Positions 1-26,193 of a stretch of 64,000 nucleotides of DNA are shown here, piece after piece. The DNA comes from Dyella sedimenti (GTDB lineage: Bacteria; Pseudomonadota; Gammaproteobacteria; Xanthomonadales; Rhodanobacteraceae): contig NZ_JAKWJO010000001.1 in NCBI RefSeq assembly GCF_022760995.1, positions 124,001-188,000 on the forward strand. The letters run 5' to 3'. The notes under the pieces are model-generated. The model saw only the letters and a list, made by a program, of their open reading frames with translations. It was not told where the DNA came from and made no database searches. The position numbers and the translations under genes were made by a program. Numbering within the stretch: position 1 is the stretch's first letter; every line of letters begins with the position of its first letter.

Positions 1-1030
1 GCAGTTCCTCGCGCAGGGCCTGGGCGCTGAGCAGCTCGCGCCGGGCCTGGTCGGTCACGTCGCTGACGTGCAACTGCAGGGCGTCCAGCGCCAGCTGCAG
101 TTCTTCCGCCGAGGCGGCCCGTCCGTCGGGCTGGTAGTTCAGCGCGCCCTGGCCGGCGCGATGTTGGGCCAGCAATTCGCGCAGGCTGTCCAGCACCGCG
201 ATGTTGTCGCTGCGCGCGGGGGCCGTTTCCGCGGCGGCGGCCGGCGCATGGCGCGCGAAGGCCGGGGTGGCCGGTTCCGCCGCCGCGCCGCGGGCCGGCC
301 GTTCGCCATGGATCCGGGGCGGCGCGGGAAAGGCGCGCAGCTGCGGCAGGATGCCGTCCGCGCGCAGGTGTTCGTTGACCGTGTCGTAAAGCGTGCCCAG
401 CGCCTGCACGACCATGCCGTCGAAACTCTGCAGGGCCAGCAGGCGATGCTCCACCGGCAGCTCCAGCGGCGCGCAGGCATCGCGGAAGGAGACCGCCAGC
501 GCTTGCGGGCCCAGCGGCAGCGCTTCGCCTTCCAGTGGCGGCTGGCTCACCAGGACCGCGAAACGGTAGCCCAGCTCAAACAGCGGGGGACCCAGGCGGG
601 CCTCGCCGCGCGCGACCAGCTTGTCCAGCGCCACGGCCTGCTCGTGCTCGGTCTGTTCCAGCAGCGCCAGCGGGCGCCGCGCCGTGTCGGTATCGTCCGG
701 CGCCGCGACGGGAACGCCGAGCCGGCTGAAATGCTCGCGCAAGCCCTGCAGGAAGCGCCGCTCCACCGTCCCGCGCTGCTGCTGCATCAGCTGGCGGCTA
801 TACAGGCATTGCTGCTGTTCCAAGTGGTTGCGGGAACGCTCGGCCTGCGCGTACAGGCGCTGCTCGGCGTCGGACAGGCAGGCGCGCAGGGGCGCCTCCA
901 GCCAGCTGGTGCACAGCGCGTGGACTTCCTCGATCAGCCGGCGCGCGCGCGGCGCCCAGCCAGCATGGTCGGGACGGAGGTCCCGCTCGGACACGAATGG
1001 CTGGCGTCGACCCTGCTGTTCGACATCCAT
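1..1030 (-). CDS. DUF1631 family protein, N-terminal part (gene continues beyond the left edge)
   Basis: The reading frame opens at an ATG at 1030 and stays open to position 1, so about 343 codons of the N-terminus are present and the stop lies outside. The protein is soluble and rich in Leu, Ala, Arg and Glu. It has the look of DUF1631 proteins known from xanthomonads and pseudomonads: an early segment RRLIEEVHALCTSWLEAPL, a middle segment with LPLGPQALAVSFRDA, and LQSFDGMVVQALGTLYDTVNEHL followed by an Ala/Pro-rich linker. I see no signal peptide or membrane segment. The molecular function of DUF1631 is not established. The start is supported by a G-rich stretch (GGGGGGAA) about 12 bases upstream. 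A short inverted repeat, GACAGGGTCTGTC, overlaps the start region. The overlapping long frames on the plus strand are composition artefacts. Confidence 0.75.
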   Translation of the reverse strand, partial: MDVEQQGRRQPFVSERDLRPDHAGWAPRARRLIEEVHALCTSWLEAPLRACLSDAEQRLYAQAERSRNHLEQQQCLYSRQLMQQQRGTVERRFLQGLREHFSRLGVPVAAPDDTDTARRPLALLEQTEHEQAVALDKLVARGEARLGPPLFELGYRFAVLVSQPPLEGEALPLGPQALAVSFRDACAPLELPVEHRLLALQSFDGMVVQALGTLYDTVNEHLRADGILPQLRAFPAPPRIHGERPARGAAAEPATPAFARHAPAAAAETAPARSDNIAVLDSLRELLAQHRAGQGALNYQPDGRAASAEELQLALDALQLHVSDVTDQARRELLSAQALREEL

Positions 1031-16020: not shown

Positions 16021-16162
16021 GCGTCTTTCCCTCCCAATAGAGAAGCCGGGAATTCGCAAGCCCTTGTTTCGTTAGCCATTACCGAACGCCACGTCGGCTG
16101 CTGCATGGCCTTCGCACGCATCTTCGGCTAACGTGGCGGCTTTCCCAGGCCACCACCCGCCC

Positions 16163-16999
16163 ATGACCGATTCCGTTAGCGCCAAGCCCGACGACAGCGC
16201 CTTGGTGCGCGTCCGTGGCCTGACCACGGTGCTCAATGGCAAGAAGGTGTTCGACGCGCTGGACGTGGCGATCCCGCGCGGCAAGATCACCGCGATCATG
16301 GGACCCAGCGGCACCGGCAAGACCACCCTGCTCAAGCACATCACCGGCCAGATGCGCGGCGACGCGGGCGAGGTATGGGTGGATGGCCAGAACGTGCAGA
16401 CGATCTCGCGGGAAAAGCTGTTCGAGCTGCGTGAGCGCATCGGCTACCTGTTCCAGAACTCCGCGCTGCTGACCGATTTCGACGTGTTCGAGAACGTGGC
16501 GTTCCCGCTGCGCCAGCACACCGACCTGCCGGAAGTGCTGATCCGCAACATCGTGCTGACCAAATTGCAGGCGGTGGGACTGCGCGGCGCGGCCGGGCTG
16601 ATGCCTTCGGAGTTGTCCGGCGGCATGGCGCGCCGCGTGGCGCTGGCGCGCGCGATCGTGTTCGATCCCATGCTGATCCTGTACGACGAGCCGTTCGTGG
16701 GCCTGGACCCGATCGCGCTGAACCAGGTGCTCAAGCTGATCCGCACGCTAAACCAGACGCTGGGCATCACCAGCGTGCTGGTGGCGCACGAGCTGGAGGC
16801 GATCAAGCAGGTGGCCGACCACATCTACCTCATCGCCAACGGCAAGGTGGTGGCGCAGGGCGATCCGAACACCATCGCCGGCGACGGCTCGCCGTGGACT
16901 CGGCAGTTCTTCGGCGGCGAGGCCGACGGCCCGGTGCCGTTCCAGTACCCGGCGGGCGACTATGCCGCTTCGCTCGGCTTTCCGCGGAGTAACCCATGA
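16163..16999 (+). CDS. mlaF: MlaF, ATPase of the phospholipid-trafficking ABC transporter
   Basis: A 278-residue ABC ATPase of the MlaFEDB complex that moves phospholipids between the inner membrane and the MlaC carrier. Walker A is GPSGTGKTT, the signature is LSGGMARRV (typical of the MCE/Mkl class), Walker B is LILYDEPFVGLDP, and the switch His is in VAHELEAI. The start at 16163 (MTDSVSAKPDDS) is preferred to one 10 codons earlier that reads through Pro/His-rich non-conserved sequence. First gene of mlaFEDCB; the stop overlaps mlaE by 4 bases. The 142 bases before it hold a spaced inverted repeat (CGCCACGT near 16086 and ACGTGGCG near 16131). Confidence 0.95.
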   Translation: MTDSVSAKPDDSALVRVRGLTTVLNGKKVFDALDVAIPRGKITAIMGPSGTGKTTLLKHITGQMRGDAGEVWVDGQNVQTISREKLFELRERIGYLFQNSALLTDFDVFENVAFPLRQHTDLPEVLIRNIVLTKLQAVGLRGAAGLMPSELSGGMARRVALARAIVFDPMLILYDEPFVGLDPIALNQVLKLIRTLNQTLGITSVLVAHELEAIKQVADHIYLIANGKVVAQGDPNTIAGDGSPWTRQFFGGEADGPVPFQYPAGDYAASLGFPRSNP

Positions 17000-17769
17000 G
17001 CGTGCCGATGAGCCGGGACAACATCGTGCTGCGCTCGCTGGCGCAGATCGGCGAATGCGGGCTGTTCCTGCTGCGCATGCTCGCCGCCGTGCCGCGCAGC
17101 CTGCGCCATTATCGCGAGACGTTGCGCCAGATCTGGTTCGTGGGCGCCATGAGCCTGATCATCATCATGGTCTGCGGCTTGTTCGTGGGCATGGTGCTGG
17201 GGCTGCAGCTGTACGACGTGCTGTCGATCTTTGGCGGCACCTCGGCCACCGGCACGGTGGTGGCGATCGCGATCTACCGCGAGCTGGGCCCGGTGGTCAC
17301 CGCGCTGCTGTTCGCCGGCCGCGCCGGCACCTCGGTCACCGCCGAGATCGGCCTGATGCGCGCCACCGACCAGATCGCCGCGATGGAGATGATGGCGGTC
17401 GACCCGGTCGCCTACGTGGCGGTGCCGCGCTTCATCGCCGGCGTGATCGCCATGCCGCTGCTGAGCTGCGTGTTCTGCGCGCTGGGCATCTTCGGTGGCC
17501 ACCTGGTCGGCGTGACCTGGCTGGGCATCGACAACGGCACCTTCTGGTCGAACATGACCGCCACCGTCGAGGTGGTGAAGGACGTGATCAACGGCGTGCT
17601 GTGGAAGAGCGTGGTGTTCGGCACCGTGGTGTCGCTGATCGCCGTGTTCCAGGGCTATACCACGCCGCCCACCAGCGAGGGCGTGGCCTATGCCACCACC
17701 CGCACCGTGGTCGCCTCGTCCATCGCCATCCTGGCGCTGGACTTCGTGCTCACCGCCTTCCTGATGTGA
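16996..17769 (+). CDS. mlaE: MlaE, permease of the Mla phospholipid transporter
   Basis: A 257-residue MlaE/YrbE membrane protein with about five to six hydrophobic segments. Family motifs are QIWFVGAMSLIIIMVCGLFVGMVLGLQ, ELGPVVTALLFAGRAGTSVTAEIGLM and ATDQIAAMEMMAVDPV, followed by VPRFIAGVIAMPLL. The GYTTPPTSEGVAYATTRTVV segment precedes the last membrane helix. It lies between mlaF (4-base overlap) and mlaD (46-base gap). Confidence 0.96.
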   Translation: MSVPMSRDNIVLRSLAQIGECGLFLLRMLAAVPRSLRHYRETLRQIWFVGAMSLIIIMVCGLFVGMVLGLQLYDVLSIFGGTSATGTVVAIAIYRELGPVVTALLFAGRAGTSVTAEIGLMRATDQIAAMEMMAVDPVAYVAVPRFIAGVIAMPLLSCVFCALGIFGGHLVGVTWLGIDNGTFWSNMTATVEVVKDVINGVLWKSVVFGTVVSLIAVFQGYTTPPTSEGVAYATTRTVVASSIAILALDFVLTAFLM

Positions 17770-17815: not shown

Positions 17816-18673
17816 GTGAGCCAGAGACCGTCCTATGCCGTCGGCACCGGCCTGTTCATCGTGCTCGGCTTTGCCGCGCTCGGCTATCTCGCTACCCAGA
17901 CCACCTCGGTGGCCAACACCAGCCGCGGCCCCAGCTACACCGTCGAGGCGCACTTCGCCAACATCGGCCAGCTCAAGGAGCGCGCGCCGGTGAAGGTGGC
18001 CGGCGTGCGCGTCGGCCAGGTGCGTTCGATCACGCTCGAACCCGGCAAGGAAACGGCCGACGTGAAGCTGGCCATCGACCAGCGCTACGGCCAGATCCCG
18101 GACGATTCGGTCGCCACCATCTTCACCAGCGGCCTGCTGGGCGACCAGTACGTGGGCATCCAGTACGGCAGCTCGAAGAAGGTGCTGGCCGATGGCGGCA
18201 CGCTGGCGCTGACCCGCCCGGCGCAGCAACTGGAAGAGATGCTTGGCAAGTTCTTCGGCGCCGGCGGCGCGGCCGACAACCTGGCCGGCAGCTACCGGGT
18301 CAAGGCGCGCTTCTCCAACATCGGCGCGCTGTCGGTGGGCGCACCGGTGAAGATGGCCGGCGTGGCCATCGGCAGCGTGCAGACCGTGAAGGCCGATCCG
18401 GTGAAGCTCGACGCCGAAGTCACCCTGGCCATCGACAAGAAATACAGCCAGATCCCGGACGACTCCGCCGCCGCCGTGTTCACCAGTGGTTTGATCGGCA
18501 CGCAGTACGTTGCCATCCAGCCCGGCGGCTCGCCGGACATGCTCAAGGACGGCGACGAGCTGGTGCTGACCCAGTCGGCCATGCAGATCGAGGACCTGAT
18601 CGGCAAGTTCCTGGTCAGCGGCTCGTCCTCCTCGTCCGGCGACAAGAAGGATGCCGACGGCGGCAAGCATTGA
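17816..18673 (+). CDS. mlaD: MlaD with two tandem MCE domains
   Basis: The membrane-anchored MCE subunit of the Mla transporter. A single N-terminal helix (about residues 9-27) is followed by two MCE units instead of the usual one: residues 41-147 and 160-266. They align without a gap and share about 58 of 107 residues by eye, including NIG-x-L, APVK-x-AGV, QIPDDS-x-A and FTSGL-x-G-x-QYV-x-IQ. The duplication therefore includes the C-terminal tail helix that lines the pore in E. coli MlaD. The protein is 285 residues against roughly 180 for E. coli MlaD. It ends in a Ser-rich stretch and a charged tail. The start is GTG at 17816, with GAGG 9 bases upstream. Family identity is certain; the consequence of the duplication is not known. 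Confidence 0.93.
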   Translation: MSQRPSYAVGTGLFIVLGFAALGYLATQTTSVANTSRGPSYTVEAHFANIGQLKERAPVKVAGVRVGQVRSITLEPGKETADVKLAIDQRYGQIPDDSVATIFTSGLLGDQYVGIQYGSSKKVLADGGTLALTRPAQQLEEMLGKFFGAGGAADNLAGSYRVKARFSNIGALSVGAPVKMAGVAIGSVQTVKADPVKLDAEVTLAIDKKYSQIPDDSAAAVFTSGLIGTQYVAIQPGGSPDMLKDGDELVLTQSAMQIEDLIGKFLVSGSSSSSGDKKDADGGKH

Positions 18674-18726: not shown

Positions 18727-19404
18727 ATGTTGCGCAGTCTGGCCATTGCCACCGCCCTTGCCTTCGGCAGCGTGATCGCCGCGACCCCGGCGCTTGCCCA
18801 GGATGCCCCGCAGGCCGCTGCCGCCCAGCAGAGCCCGGCCCAGGTGGTGCAGTCCATTTCCGACGCGCTGGCCAAGGCCATCGAGGGCCACCAGCAGGAG
18901 CTGAGGAACAACCACGAGAAGCTGATCGGGGTGATCGACAGCGTGTTCCTGCCGCACTTCGACATCGACTACGCGTCGATCCTGGTGCTCGGCCAGCATG
19001 CCCGCGAGGCCACGCCTGAGCAGCGCTCGCGCTTCGCCAAGGCGTTCTACAACTCCATCACCCACCGTTATGCCGAGGGCCTGCTCGACTACACCCGCGG
19101 CCGCGTGAAGGTGCTGCCGTTCAGCGGCGACCTCAACGACAAGCGCACCATCGTGCGCAGCCAGGTGGTGCTCGACGACGGCAAGACAGTGGCCGTGGAC
19201 TATGCCTTCCGCAAGGACCGCGACGGCACCTGGAAGGCCTACGACGTCATCATCGAAGGCATCTCCTACATCACCAACTACCGCAACCAGGTCGATGCCG
19301 AGATCCGCAAGGTGGGCATGGACCAGCTGATCACCAACCTGGAAACCCAGGGCGAGAAGGCGCTGGAGACGATGGAGAAGGACTCCAAGGCGTCGCAGGG
19401 ATGA
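18727..19404 (+). CDS. mlaC: MlaC, periplasmic phospholipid carrier
   Basis: A 225-residue exported protein with signal peptide MLRSLAIATALAFGSVIAATPALA. The MlaC/Ttg2D family is recognised by PHFDIDYASILVLGQHAREATPEQRSRF, FYNSITHRYAEGLLDYT, VDYAFRKDRDGTWKAYDVIIEGISYITNYR and NQVDAEI in the order expected. It ferries phospholipid between MlaA-OmpC at the outer membrane and MlaFEDB at the inner membrane. The start is 53 bases after mlaD; an earlier in-frame ATG at 18670 would spoil the signal peptide. It overlaps mlaB by 4 bases. Confidence 0.95.
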   Translation: MLRSLAIATALAFGSVIAATPALAQDAPQAAAAQQSPAQVVQSISDALAKAIEGHQQELRNNHEKLIGVIDSVFLPHFDIDYASILVLGQHAREATPEQRSRFAKAFYNSITHRYAEGLLDYTRGRVKVLPFSGDLNDKRTIVRSQVVLDDGKTVAVDYAFRKDRDGTWKAYDVIIEGISYITNYRNQVDAEIRKVGMDQLITNLETQGEKALETMEKDSKASQG

Positions 19405-19703
19405 GCACGGCCGGTGCGCCCCCGGTCCTTGACGAGGGCACGCCCGGCAGCGTGCGCGTCAGCGGCGAGCTGACCTTCGCCAATGCCGCCGCCGCGCTGG
19501 CGGCCATCGGTGCGTCGGTGGCGCGCGGGCGCGGCACGCTGGACCTGTCCGGGGTCACCCGCAGCGACAGCGCCGGTCTGGCCTGCGTGCTGGCGGTGCT
19601 GGCCGAGGCCGCCGGACGGGGCCATAAGCTCAACGTGCGCCACCTGCCCGAGGGCATGCGGCTGCTGGCCAGCGTGTGCGAGGTGGAAGGCCTGCTGGTC
19701 TGA
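19401..19703 (+). CDS. mlaB: MlaB, STAS-domain subunit of the Mla transporter
   Basis: A 100-residue cytoplasmic STAS domain protein: VRVSGELTFANAAAALAAIG, LDLSGVTRSDSAGLACVLAVLAEA and LASVCEVEGLL are the STAS strand-helix pattern, with the conserved Ser-Asp region in RSDSAGL. MlaB binds MlaF and stabilises the transporter. Last gene of mlaFEDCB; a strong terminator follows 17 bases after the stop. Confidence 0.93.
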   Translation: MSTAGAPPVLDEGTPGSVRVSGELTFANAAAALAAIGASVARGRGTLDLSGVTRSDSAGLACVLAVLAEAAGRGHKLNVRHLPEGMRLLASVCEVEGLLV

Positions 19704-19775: not shown

Positions 19776-20624
19776 TCAGTGCTGCTCGGCCGGTGCCGGG
19801 TTCTGCTCCTGCGCGGACTTCTGCTTGCTTTCCCACTTCTGCTGCTCGTCCAGCAACTGGTCGGGATCGAAGTTCTTGTCCTTCAGGCCCTGCAACTGCT
19901 CGATCACCTCGTTCGGCGGATTGCCGTCGTAGATCTGGTAGATGCGCTGCTGGCGGTAGGCGTCGCGGATGAAGGCGTAGGGATCGTAGGCGGAGTTGAG
20001 GAAGCTCTCCGCATCGATCGCGCTGGAGCGTATCGACACCAGGTACAGCAGCTCGGGCAGGTACTGCTGGCCGTACTCGTAATGGTTGTTGCGCTCGAAA
20101 TAGCTCAGCGGATCGAAGAAGTAGCTGTCCACCGGCAGGCGCCACACGTCGCGCCCGGTGGTCGGGCCGAAGAACGGCAGCATCAGGTACGGGCCATCGG
20201 GCACGCCCCAGCGAGCCAGGGTGATGCCGAAGTCGGTCTCCTTCAACGGGATGCCGAGCTGGCTGGCCGGGTCGAAGAAGCCGCCGATGCCCAGGGTCAG
20301 GTTGACCAGGAAGCGGCCGCTGCCCGTGATGGCGTCCACCGGGCGGGCCTGCAGCAGGTCGTTGGCCACGGTGATCGGCATGTGGATATTGGTGAAGAAA
20401 TCGTTCACGGAACGGCGGATGGTCGGATTGGTCACCTTGCGGTAACCGACCGCCACCGGACGGATCACCGCCTTGTCCAGCGAATCGTTGAAGGTATAGA
20501 CCTTGCGGTTGAACTTCTCGTACGGATCGTCGGTGCGTGGCTTGGCGATCGTGCAGCCGGCCAGCAGAGCCATGGCCACCAGGGGCAGGCTGCGGACGAA
20601 AAGGGAGCGAAGGGCCGACGGCAT
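19776..20624 (-). CDS. mlaA: MlaA (VacJ), outer-membrane lipoprotein of the Mla system
   Basis: A 282-residue lipoprotein that removes misplaced phospholipids from the outer leaflet of the outer membrane. The signal ends in the lipobox LLAGC (MPSALRSLFVRSLPLVAMALLAGC). Motifs are DPYEKFNRKVYTFNDSLDKAV, GSGRFLVNLTLGIGGFFDPA, DFGITLARWGVPDGPYLMLPFFGP and the RD-x-WRLPVD-x-Y segment; the C-terminus is Gln/Lys-rich and probably disordered. The start at 20624 begins the signal directly; the same frame is open further upstream but reads through promoter sequence. Convergent with mlaFEDCB, so both halves of the pathway lie together but are transcribed separately. Confidence 0.95.
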   Translation of the reverse strand: MPSALRSLFVRSLPLVAMALLAGCTIAKPRTDDPYEKFNRKVYTFNDSLDKAVIRPVAVGYRKVTNPTIRRSVNDFFTNIHMPITVANDLLQARPVDAITGSGRFLVNLTLGIGGFFDPASQLGIPLKETDFGITLARWGVPDGPYLMLPFFGPTTGRDVWRLPVDSYFFDPLSYFERNNHYEYGQQYLPELLYLVSIRSSAIDAESFLNSAYDPYAFIRDAYRQQRIYQIYDGNPPNEVIEQLQGLKDKNFDPDQLLDEQQKWESKQKSAQEQNPAPAEQH

Positions 20625-20659
20625 GATGGCGACTGTCCTGGGGCAAGGGTAAGCGCAAT

Positions 20660-20690
20660 ATTGTACTTGCGGGTTTTTTATTTGTGTATA
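20660..20690 (-). promoter_or_regulatory. Possible mlaA promoter
   Basis: On the minus strand a -10-like TACAAT is at 20665-20660, 36 bases before the mlaA start, in a locally AT-rich stretch. The best -35 candidate is TATACA at 20690-20685 with a long 19-base spacer, so the assignment is weak. Confidence 0.35.
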
Positions 20691-20757
20691 GATCCCTCCA
20701 AGTCTCGGGAAGAGAAGCTGGAGGCCGCGTGAACCGGGCATGATACGGCTTGCTGCA

Positions 20758-23966: not shown

Positions 23967-26087
23967 ATGCCGCCCAGCCACGCGCTTCCCCACACGGTTC
24001 CCACGGTCGATCCCGGCGCCACGCCGGTATCGGCCTTGCCCGGCGTCGGGCCCGCCCTGGCCGAGACGCTGGGGCGCCTCGGGCTGGAGCGGGTGCAGGA
24101 CCTGTGGTTCCATCTGCCGTTGCGCTACGAGGACAAGACACGCGTGACGGCCATCGCCGACCTGCGTCCGGGCGAGCGCGCCCAGGTGGAGGGCGTGGTC
24201 GAGGCGGTCGAGCGCGGTTTCCGCTACCGGCCGCAGCTGAAGGTGGCGATCGGCGACGACTCGCAGCAGACCCTGGTGTTGCGCTTCTTCCACTTCCATC
24301 GCGCCCAGGCCGAACAGCTCAAGCCGGGCGCGCGCCTGCTTTGCTACGGCGAGGTGCGCCAGGGGCCGCAGGGACTGGAAATGGTGCATCCGCAATACCA
24401 GCGGCTGCAGGGCGACGAGCCGGCCAGCGTGGATGAATTGCTCACGCCGGTCTATCCCACTACCGAAGGGCTGGGCCAGAAACGGCTGGCCGGGGTGATC
24501 GCCAAGGCGTTGGCGCTGCTGCCGCCCGACGCCGAGCTGGAACTGATTCCTCCGCCATTGTGCGCCGAGCATGGCCTGACCTCGCTGCGCGAGGCGCTGC
24601 TGTACGTGCATCGCCCGCCACCGGATGCACACCTGGGCCAGCTGACCGCGGGCCGGCATCCGGCCCAGCAGCGGCTGGCCTTCGAGGAATTGCTGACCCA
24701 GCACCTGAGCCTGAAGCGCATGCGCGCCGCGGTGCGCCGTCGCCATGCGCCCCGGCTGCGCGGTACCGGCCAGTTGCGCGAGCGCCTGCTGGCCAGCCTG
24801 CCGTTCGGCCTCACTGGCGCGCAGCGGCGGGTGAGCGAGGAAGTCGCCGCGGACCTCGCGCAGGCGCGCCCCATGCTGCGCCTGGTACAGGGCGACGTGG
24901 GCAGCGGCAAGACCATCGTGGCGGCACTGGCCGCGCTGGCGGCGGTGGAGTCGGGCCTGCAGGTGGCGCTGGTGGCGCCCACCGAACTGCTCGCCGAGCA
25001 GCATCTCCATCATTTCCGCCATTGGCTGACGCCGCTGGGCGTGGAAGTGGCCTGGCTGGCCGGCAAGGTGGCGGGCAAGGCGCGCCAGCAGGTGCTGCAG
25101 CGCGTGGCCGCCGGCGCCCACGTGGTGATCGGCACGCATGCGCTGATGCAGGAAGGCGTGGCCTTCGCGCAGCTGGGCCTGGTCATCGTGGACGAGCAGC
25201 ACCGCTTCGGTGTGCAGCAGCGCCTGTCGCTGCGCGACAAGGGGGCGGACAGCACCTCGGGCCTGGTGCCGCACCAACTGGTGCTGACCGCCACGCCGAT
25301 CCCGCGCACGCTCGCCATGAGCGCCTATGCGGACCTGGACGCCTCGGCCATCGATGAATTGCCGCCGGGACGCACGCCGGTGCAGACCATCGCCATTTCC
25401 AACGCGCGCCGCGCGGAAGTGATCGAGCGCATCCATGCGGCATGCCGCGAAGGACGGCAGGTCTATTGGGTATGCACGCTGATCGAGGAATCCGAGCAGT
25501 TGCGGGCGCAGGCCGCCGAGGTGGCGCACGCCGAACTGTCCGCCGCGCTGGCCGATTGCCGGGTGGGCCTGATCCATGGGCGCATGAAGCCCAAGGAAAA
25601 ACAGGCGGTGATGGATGCCTTCAAGGCGGGCGAGCTGTCGGTGCTGGTCGCCACCACGGTGATCGAGGTAGGCGTGGACGTACCCAACGCCAGCCTGATG
25701 GTGATCGAGAACAGCGAGCGCCTGGGCCTGGCACAGTTGCACCAACTGCGCGGGCGAGTGGGGCGCGGCGCGGTGGCGTCCAATTGCGTGCTGCTGTACC
25801 AGCCGCCGATCGGCCAGTTGGCGCGCGAGCGCCTGCAAGTGATGCGCGACACCAACGACGGCTTCCGTATCGCCGAGAAGGATCTGGAGCTGCGCGGTCC
25901 CGGCGAGGTGCTGGGCACGCGCCAGACCGGCCAGCTCAGCTTTCGCATCGCCGATCTCTCCCGCGATGCCCACCTGCTTCCCGCCGTGCAGGAAGTGGGC
26001 GCTCATCTGCTGGCCCATCACCCGCGGCAGGCCGAGCGGCTCATCGCGCGCTGGATCGGCGGCGCCGCACGCTATGTCCACGCTTGA
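23967..26087 (+). CDS. recG: RecG, ATP-dependent branch-migrating DNA helicase
   Basis: A 706-residue superfamily 2 helicase for Holliday junction and replication fork regression. The N-terminal wedge/OB domain starts VSALPGVGPALAETLGRLGLERVQDLWFHLP. Helicase motifs are GDVGSGKTIVAA (Walker A), VIVDEQHRFGVQQR (DEQH box), LTATPIPRTLAMSAYADLDASAIDELPPGR and VATTVIEVGVDVPNASLMVIENSERLGLAQLHQLRGRVGRG. Length is normal. The start at 23967 follows the ridA-recG gap of 80 bases. Confidence 0.97.
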   Translation: MPPSHALPHTVPTVDPGATPVSALPGVGPALAETLGRLGLERVQDLWFHLPLRYEDKTRVTAIADLRPGERAQVEGVVEAVERGFRYRPQLKVAIGDDSQQTLVLRFFHFHRAQAEQLKPGARLLCYGEVRQGPQGLEMVHPQYQRLQGDEPASVDELLTPVYPTTEGLGQKRLAGVIAKALALLPPDAELELIPPPLCAEHGLTSLREALLYVHRPPPDAHLGQLTAGRHPAQQRLAFEELLTQHLSLKRMRAAVRRRHAPRLRGTGQLRERLLASLPFGLTGAQRRVSEEVAADLAQARPMLRLVQGDVGSGKTIVAALAALAAVESGLQVALVAPTELLAEQHLHHFRHWLTPLGVEVAWLAGKVAGKARQQVLQRVAAGAHVVIGTHALMQEGVAFAQLGLVIVDEQHRFGVQQRLSLRDKGADSTSGLVPHQLVLTATPIPRTLAMSAYADLDASAIDELPPGRTPVQTIAISNARRAEVIERIHAACREGRQVYWVCTLIEESEQLRAQAAEVAHAELSAALADCRVGLIHGRMKPKEKQAVMDAFKAGELSVLVATTVIEVGVDVPNASLMVIENSERLGLAQLHQLRGRVGRGAVASNCVLLYQPPIGQLARERLQVMRDTNDGFRIAEKDLELRGPGEVLGTRQTGQLSFRIADLSRDAHLLPAVQEVGAHLLAHHPRQAERLIARWIGGAARYVHA

Positions 26088-26095
26088 GGACGGGG

Positions 26096-26190
26096 AATAG
26101 GGAATGGAGAATAGGGAACCGGAAACGCCGGAACGCCGCGGCGCCACGTTTTCCCATCCCCATCCCCATCCCCATCCCCATCCCCATCCC
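26096..26190 (+). repeat. Purine-rich GGGAATRG repeats and a CCCCAT hexamer array before the nucleoside hydrolase gene
   Basis: From about 26096 the sequence runs through GGGAATAGGGAATGG and GAGAATAGGGAAC units. From about 26152 a tandem (CCCCAT)n array, with n about six, runs to the bases just before the start codon at 26194. The purine and pyrimidine tracts are roughly complementary (GGGAATGG with CCATTCCC-like units), so the leader could fold back on itself. In frame, the array would encode His-Pro repeats. No Shine-Dalgarno sequence separates it from the ATG. Confidence 0.7.
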
Positions 26191-26193
26191 CCC

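Follow-up and report, generated by a model that had tools for sequence, protein, structure and literature searches.

A tandem duplication of the MCE domain in MlaD of Dyella sedimenti and related Rhodanobacteraceae, with conserved residues divided between the two copies

The window analysed here is a stretch of 64,000 nucleotides of the Dyella sedimenti genome (contig NZ_JAKWJO010000001.1, positions 124,001 to 188,000), and it contains an mla operon in the order mlaF-mlaE-mlaD-mlaC-mlaB, with mlaA close by (Table 1). Pfam profile searches placed PF02405, PF00005, PF05494 and PF13466 above their cut-offs in the open reading frames adjoining mlaD. Among the equivalog models, the MlaE model NF033619 also exceeded its cut-off, and the MlaF, MlaC and MlaB models gave matches below their own. 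The immediate neighbors of mlaD are identified by these profiles as MlaE and MlaC, and no PqiA-type permease adjoins it. Outside the window, the source genome carries a separate PqiB-like open reading frame with three MCE domains (open frame of 561 aa, G000:C17:231518-232576) and a second one with a single MCE domain (open frame of 314 aa, G000:C1:359841-360071). Elsewhere in the window, a perfect tandem repeat of CCCATC (6.5 copies, 26153-26191) lies just 3' of a recG-like open reading frame (23967-26087).

Table 1. Features of the mla locus, in window coordinates
Feature	Position	Strand	Remarks
mlaF, ABC ATPase	16133..16999	+	348.3 bits to the MlaF model, below the curated cut-off of 441
mlaE, permease	16996..17769	+	PF02405, NF033619; D179/E192 at E. 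coli D181/D194
mlaD, two MCE domains	17816..18673	+	285 aa, GTG start; PF02470, TIGR04430, AF2
N-terminal TM helix, residues 9-34	17840..17917	+	AF2, low confidence; G12 = E. coli G11
D1, first MCE domain and tail helix, residues 41-147	17936..18256	+	K54/R56 kept, beta6-beta7 loop changed
K54-E55-R56 of D1	17975..17983	+	E. coli K53 and R55 by alignment
beta6-beta7 loop of D1, residues 117-122 (YGSSKK)	18164..18181	+	changed
D2, second MCE domain and tail helix, residues 160-266	18293..18613	+	MlaC-docking loop kept
beta6-beta7 loop of D2, residues 236-241 (PGGSPD)	18521..18538	+	like one-domain relatives
mlaC, periplasmic lipid shuttle	18730..19404	+	PF05494 above cut-off
mlaB, STAS protein	19401..19703	+	PF13466 above cut-off
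mlaA, outer-membrane lipoprotein	19776..20741	-	downstream of and convergent with the mla operon; PF04333 above cut-off

The earlier note on this DNA, made from the sequence by eye, had described MlaD as carrying an ungapped tandem duplication of its MCE domain at roughly 54 percent identity, including the tail helix, and this description was confirmed. PF02470 finds two domains rather than one (two stretches, 144.7 bits against a cut-off of 25.1), and the MlaD model TIGR04430 OM_asym_MlaD also matches in two stretches (287.3 bits against 135); the PqiB equivalog reaches 26.3 bits, with a cut-off of 525. The two blocks share 58 of 107 residues without gaps (54.2%) and 223 of 321 nucleotides (69.5%), and their local BLOSUM62 score is 306, compared to a mean of 31.2 (SD 5.7, maximum 59) in 1000 shuffles. 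An AF2 model of the monomer (mean pLDDT 68.9, pTM 0.38, ten-residue blocks within both domains mostly 77-89) predicts the transmembrane helix followed by two MCE folds with identical strand order, and places a helix with low confidence after each fold (139-146 and 258-267). The transmembrane residue G12 is invariant in 23 two-domain MlaDs, and the corresponding glycine of E. coli MlaD, G11, is reported to pack on MlaE (PMC7790496).

The two-domain MlaD is not an artefact of one assembly. It was found in 145 of 233 Rhodanobacteraceae genomes, distributed over 17 genera, with a full-length match in 144 of them and the two halves on two contigs in the last (G368). The other 88 genomes of the family, in nine genera, gave best E-values of at least 6.4e-59 among the matches listed, whereas the weakest full-length match stands at 2.6e-117. 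Among the matches listed, two of these 88 genomes had none and a few had only weak ones. The family counts were made by hand from the match listing, and translations were read in 19 one-domain and 23 two-domain representatives. One genus-mate (G244:C1) has two mlaD matches of equal score, with a contamination of 9%, and another (G248:C1), counted among the 144 full-length matches, has an in-frame TAG within its mlaD gene.

When named genomes were searched with 21 aligned two-domain MlaDs, 208 relatives were obtained, and the best 80 of these match nearly end to end; being the top scorers, they are uninformative as to how common the two-domain form is. They bear the names Luteibacter, Pinirhizobacter, Fulvimonas, Rhodanobacter, Frateuria and Dyella, together with some more broadly named MAGs, and from a reading of these names the family is Rhodanobacteraceae rather than Xanthomonadaceae. 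One of these MAGs, a record titled Candidatus Eremiobacteraeota (L155), encodes a two-domain MlaD that shares 73% identity with the Luteibacter query; it is probably a mislabelled or contaminated bin. In a 200-genome sample of the order, 34 of them in Rhodanobacteraceae, none of the 166 genomes outside the family reached a two-domain score among the matches listed. The two-domain clade is thus the core of Rhodanobacteraceae and not Xanthomonadales as a whole.

The origin of the duplication was approached with FastTree phylogenies. In an outgroup-rooted tree of MlaF, MlaE and MlaC from 51 genomes, all 23 two-domain genomes form one clade (support 0.76), and in a midpoint-rooted tree, with no outgroup, of six linked non-Mla proteins from 39 genomes, all 22 do so (support 0.91). 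Both trees place this clade amid one-domain members, with genus g7 as its sister. Because the two-domain genomes form a single clade that lies within one-domain relatives, the duplication is derived and most likely happened just once in Rhodanobacteraceae. In a tree of the individual domains, the D1s form one clade and the D2s another (13/13; supports 1.0 and 0.998), which places the duplication before the split of the genera, and the same separation rules out concerted evolution of D1 and D2.

A converse history was also considered, in which the one-domain form arose by loss from a two-domain ancestor, through fusion of the N-terminal half of D1 to the C-terminal half of D2. Many one-domain genomes indeed match these two halves best, and some match residues 1-116 of D1 best. 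Loss was rejected since both gene sets recover the two-domain genomes as one clade, which has a nested position in the outgroup-rooted tree, and it is also countered by the other families of the order, which gave only one-domain-length matches among those listed. A PF02470 search of 31 genomes (16 two-domain and 15 one-domain) detected an open reading frame with three MCE domains in 16/16 and 4/15, respectively, and none with more than three matches. A link to a missing LetB was discarded, since in these 31 genomes the absence of LetB makes no distinction between the two-domain and one-domain groups.

Three other gammaproteobacterial lineages have MlaDs with two or more MCE domains. They emerged from a class sample of 369 genomes, in which three further MlaDs with extra MCE domains (G487, G657 and G501) were present among the matches listed. 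Those of G487 (277 aa) and G657 have two MCE domains each and lie beside mlaE, mlaF and mlaC. The G501 protein has at least three; its gene reaches a contig end and its C-terminal end lies on a second contig, and since the two pieces (L174:4977-6002, plus strand, and L175:5004-5495, minus strand) overlap with 97% identity, three or more domains are possible. The two-domain MlaDs of other gammaproteobacterial families belong to f101 and f160 (L172:6171-7001, L173:5986-6837 and L217:301-1095, all on the minus strand, and L218:301-1095 on the plus strand) and are apparently separate duplications. The two-domain form was found in three of 32 genomes of the order of G657, all in family f160, nine other genomes of which gave matches of one-domain length only. 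The sole other genome examined in the order of G501 gave a one-domain match, and G487 was the one genome examined for its order. No new tandem form appeared among the matches listed in a second class search centered on G657 (369 genomes, a nearly identical set), nor any further case in a phylum sample of 398 genomes, where two-domain scores were confined to f1 among the matches listed.

The domain tree groups all Rhodanobacteraceae and f3 domains in one clade (support 0.983). It places the f160 domains amid the one-domain proteins of f160, and the last G501 domain with the one-domain MlaD of its own family (0.92); these groupings led us to reject a shared origin, or a transfer, of the other tandem forms. 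The domains of G487 are not well placed, the first of them grouping with the two complete inner G501 domains beside the Rhodanobacteraceae clade (0.837), so that the argument for the independence of G487 is one from distance only.

How the two copies have diverged emerges from a comparison of 95 distinct two-domain proteins (from 103) with 19 one-domain proteins of Rhodanobacteraceae. In E. coli, MlaD residues K53 and R55 are reported to contact the headgroups of lipids within the MlaE cavity, and R55 and R67 to interact with D194 and D181 in the periplasmic helix of MlaE (PMC7784689); by alignment, the E. coli numbering is one lower than that of Dyella D1. The equivalent residues K54 and R56 are both present in 94/95 D1s, 0/95 D2s and 17/19 one-domain relatives. 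The MlaE of Dyella has an acidic residue at both partner sites (D179 and E192), and the counterpart of E. coli R67 is Q68 in D1. In the beta1-beta2 loop, D1 shares 80% identity with the one-domain relatives and D2 51%. Not every part of D1 ahead of the beta6-beta7 loop is the more ancestral copy, since the beta1 and beta4 regions are somewhat nearer to the one-domain relatives in D2 (0.54 and 0.64, versus 0.48 and 0.52 in D1).

The opposite pattern is found at the beta6-beta7 loop. This loop is acidic in E. coli MlaD and docks MlaC; the F118E, E119K and D120K changes abolish growth on SDS/EDTA, E122K is without effect, and charge reversal to lysine at E119 or D120 strongly reduces transport (PMC11289387). 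The F118A and L123A proteins bind MlaC more weakly, yet complement if over-expressed (PMC10245069). Identity to one-domain relatives in this loop is 90% for D2 and 30% for D1, and in the tail helix 83% and 46%, respectively. Over a 13-residue stretch of the loop, mean charge is +0.81 in D1 and -2.36 in D2 (95 each), compared to -1.89 in one-domain relatives, and most D1 loops are neutral to basic. A lysine or arginine at 121 or 122 occurs in 94/95 D1s, 0/95 D2s and 1/19 one-domain proteins; the E. coli loop is longer, with D120 falling one residue past the aligned block, so that K121 is matched to it by count. None of 20,000 column permutations attained the contrast seen between residues 39-75 and 117-150, an outcome that serves as a guide only because the columns are not independent.

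A related pattern is seen in the wider set of tandem and one-domain proteins. The loop has its second glycine in 18/18 last domains, in 63/70 one-domain proteins (A in six, F in one) and in 0/19 inner domains, and the mean loop charges of these groups are -2.50, -2.41 and +0.95; Rhodanobacteraceae contribute 13 of the 18 last and 13 of the 19 inner domains. In the larger set, glycine is found at this position in 2/95 D1s. Outside Rhodanobacteraceae, the inner loops have charges of +3 and +1 (G501), +2 (G487, G1144 and G1145) and -2 (G657), and the last domains have -5 (G501), 0 (G487) and -3 (G1144, G1145 and G657). One one-domain relative has a loop charge of +2. The third domain of L174 and of L225, cut by an end or frame break, was left out of these counts. 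Of the one-domain proteins used, 48 belong to other families. Among these, 41 (L176-L216) were taken largely from the best scorers of the class search, with one from the phylum search, and so lean toward the query; the remaining seven (L219-L224 and L226) come from the search of the order of G657. The K/R pair is also absent from the six one-domain relatives examined in the f160 lineage, and only the loop is therefore informative there. Convergence of the loop pattern over four lineages is suggestive, not strong.

Both copies are under purifying selection, with dN/dS of 0.14-0.30 for D1 and 0.10-0.24 for D2 (seven comparisons each). The pore leucines of E. coli MlaD, L106 and L107 (PMC7784689), have counterparts in both domains, L107/L108 in D1 and L226/I227 in D2. 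Judging from these alignments, the copies have divided other conserved residues between them, with the K/R pair in D1 only and the docking loop in D2 only; the roles that we attach to these residues are those known from E. coli.

The best explanation of these findings, to which we assign a probability of about 75%, is a tandem duplication followed by a splitting of tasks, in a machine that would still operate as a shuttle. In a common ancestor of Dyella, Rhodanobacter, Luteibacter, Frateuria and allied genera, the MCE domain of mlaD and its tail helix were duplicated in tandem, and the two copies would then have shared out the tasks that one domain had performed before. The MlaD hexamer was most likely retained, with six transmembrane helices around the MlaE dimer, and this would generate two coaxial MCE rings. 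We infer the stacking of the rings; the AF2 model is that of a single chain, has a low pTM and places its helices with uncertainty. D1 would lie by the membrane, with K54 and R56 facing MlaE and the headgroups of lipids in the cavity. Lipids would pass from the D1 pore (L107/L108) through a first bundle of tail helices to the D2 pore (L226/I227) and a second bundle, and MlaC would dock on D2 alone, one ring further from the inner membrane. The retention of mlaC and mlaA argues for an MlaC-dependent shuttle system with a raised dock, rather than a bridge. Two stacked rings reaching toward MlaC, as the earlier note had proposed, remain the best reading, given a K/R pair confined to D1 and a docking loop confined to D2, with the rings themselves conjectural. 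Its further description of this protein as an intermediate between MlaD and PqiB is apt for the architecture but not for the ancestry: the gene belongs to an mla operon and is a derived mlaD that falls within one-domain relatives, and the PqiB-like open reading frame is a separate one.

The main rival of two stacked rings is an arrangement in which three two-domain subunits build a single ring with the usual six MCE domains, D1 and D2 taking turns around it, with three transmembrane helices and no gain in height. The nearly equal length of the two domains and the pore-lining residues in both would suit such a ring, and MCE subunits may differ, as the Mce1 structure entries list several different Mce chains. 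Both domains would then meet MlaE as well as MlaC, however, and the strict split between K/R pair and loop would not be expected. Furthermore, the six transmembrane helices of E. coli MlaD are reported to pack against the MlaE dimer, with three on each MlaE (PMC7784689), and the transmembrane glycine is invariant here; the G501 form, with at least three MCE domains, also speaks against an alternating ring, which we consider unlikely. A different version of the stacked arrangement has MlaC docking at both rings, so that the gain is in docking sites and not in height. More than one MlaC can bind a single E. coli MlaD hexamer (PMC10245069), but 94/95 D1 loops have a basic residue at 121 or 122, and lysine at E119 or D120 strongly lowers transport in E. 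coli, so that double docking is very unlikely.

It is highly improbable that the extra MCE domain is a neutral or decaying duplicate with no structural role. Beta4, the beta6-beta7 loop, beta7-beta8 and the tail helix are all more variable in D1 than in D2, as decay might predict. Decay is nevertheless difficult to reconcile with full-length matches in 144 of the 145 genomes from these 17 genera (G248, with its stop codon, included), with dN/dS well below 1 and many invariant positions in both domains, or with comparable tandem forms in other lineages.

Returning to the reading with two stacked rings and MlaC docking on D2, we favor on balance the wider view that Mla machines have repeatedly been lengthened by MCE rings added within the chain. 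The faces that come to lie inward would no longer keep the dock for MlaC or the contacts to MlaE, the ends of the tube would be conserved, and its length would vary. Rhodanobacteraceae would then have a fixed two-storey machine of the shuttle type, and the three other gammaproteobacterial lineages would have reached two or more storeys, most likely independently. MCE tubes range from one to seven rings, and the route of lengthening is known mainly from its end products. Here, lengthening with a single origin can be compared with living one-domain sisters, and with further cases elsewhere, in the best understood MCE transporter. This provides a natural test of which ring face works with MlaE and which with MlaC, and of whether it is docking height or tunnel length that counts in phospholipid transport.

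The common kinds of MCE protein have one, three or seven domains, with other variants much rarer, and a type I protein has exactly one (Isom 2017, PMC5561183). With its two PF02470 stretches, the Dyella MlaD falls outside type I (one), PqiB/type III (three) and LetB/type IV (seven). The portions consulted of papers on the S. maltophilia Mla system (PMC10925693), Veillonella (PMC10665443) and Brucella (PMC12436622) make no mention of a two-MCE MlaD. Titles and abstract beginnings in the open-access literature likewise yielded no description among the matches listed; Table S1 of Isom 2017 may contain a two-MCE class. As far as we have found, the proposed two-storey MlaD machine is apparently undescribed so far.

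The Dyella protein resembles MlaD of E. coli and P. aeruginosa in its operon partners, transmembrane helix, MCE fold, tail helix and pore leucines, and the model matches MlaD structure entries over one domain with a VIA-align Z of up to 19.5. It differs from them in having two MCE domains per chain instead of one, with the conserved functional residues divided between these. Tandem MCE domains in one chain are shared with PqiB (three) and LetB/YebT (seven). The model aligns to MCE2-3 of LetB (6vci_A) over 39..256 (Z 14.4, rmsd 9.3 A, 189 residues, 13% identity) and to PqiB (5uvn_A) over 40..255 (Z 11.8, rmsd 10.4 A, 190 residues, 20% identity), and these large rmsd values may be expected because the domain arrangement in the model is uncertain. 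The partners of PqiB and LetB are PqiA and LetA (PMC12436622); the Dyella MlaD instead has MlaE and MlaF as neighbors, an MlaD-type tail helix after each domain, and a retained mlaC. The elongated MlaD of Veillonella and the MpcD protein of Brucella provide another parallel, as longer MlaDs in ABC systems of the MlaEF type (PMC10665443, PMC12436622). In those proteins, helices (and in Veillonella also a beta-barrel) are added to a single MCE domain in what is proposed to be a bridge across the periplasm (PMC10665443, PMC12436622), whereas in Dyella the addition is a second MCE domain, and MlaC is kept.
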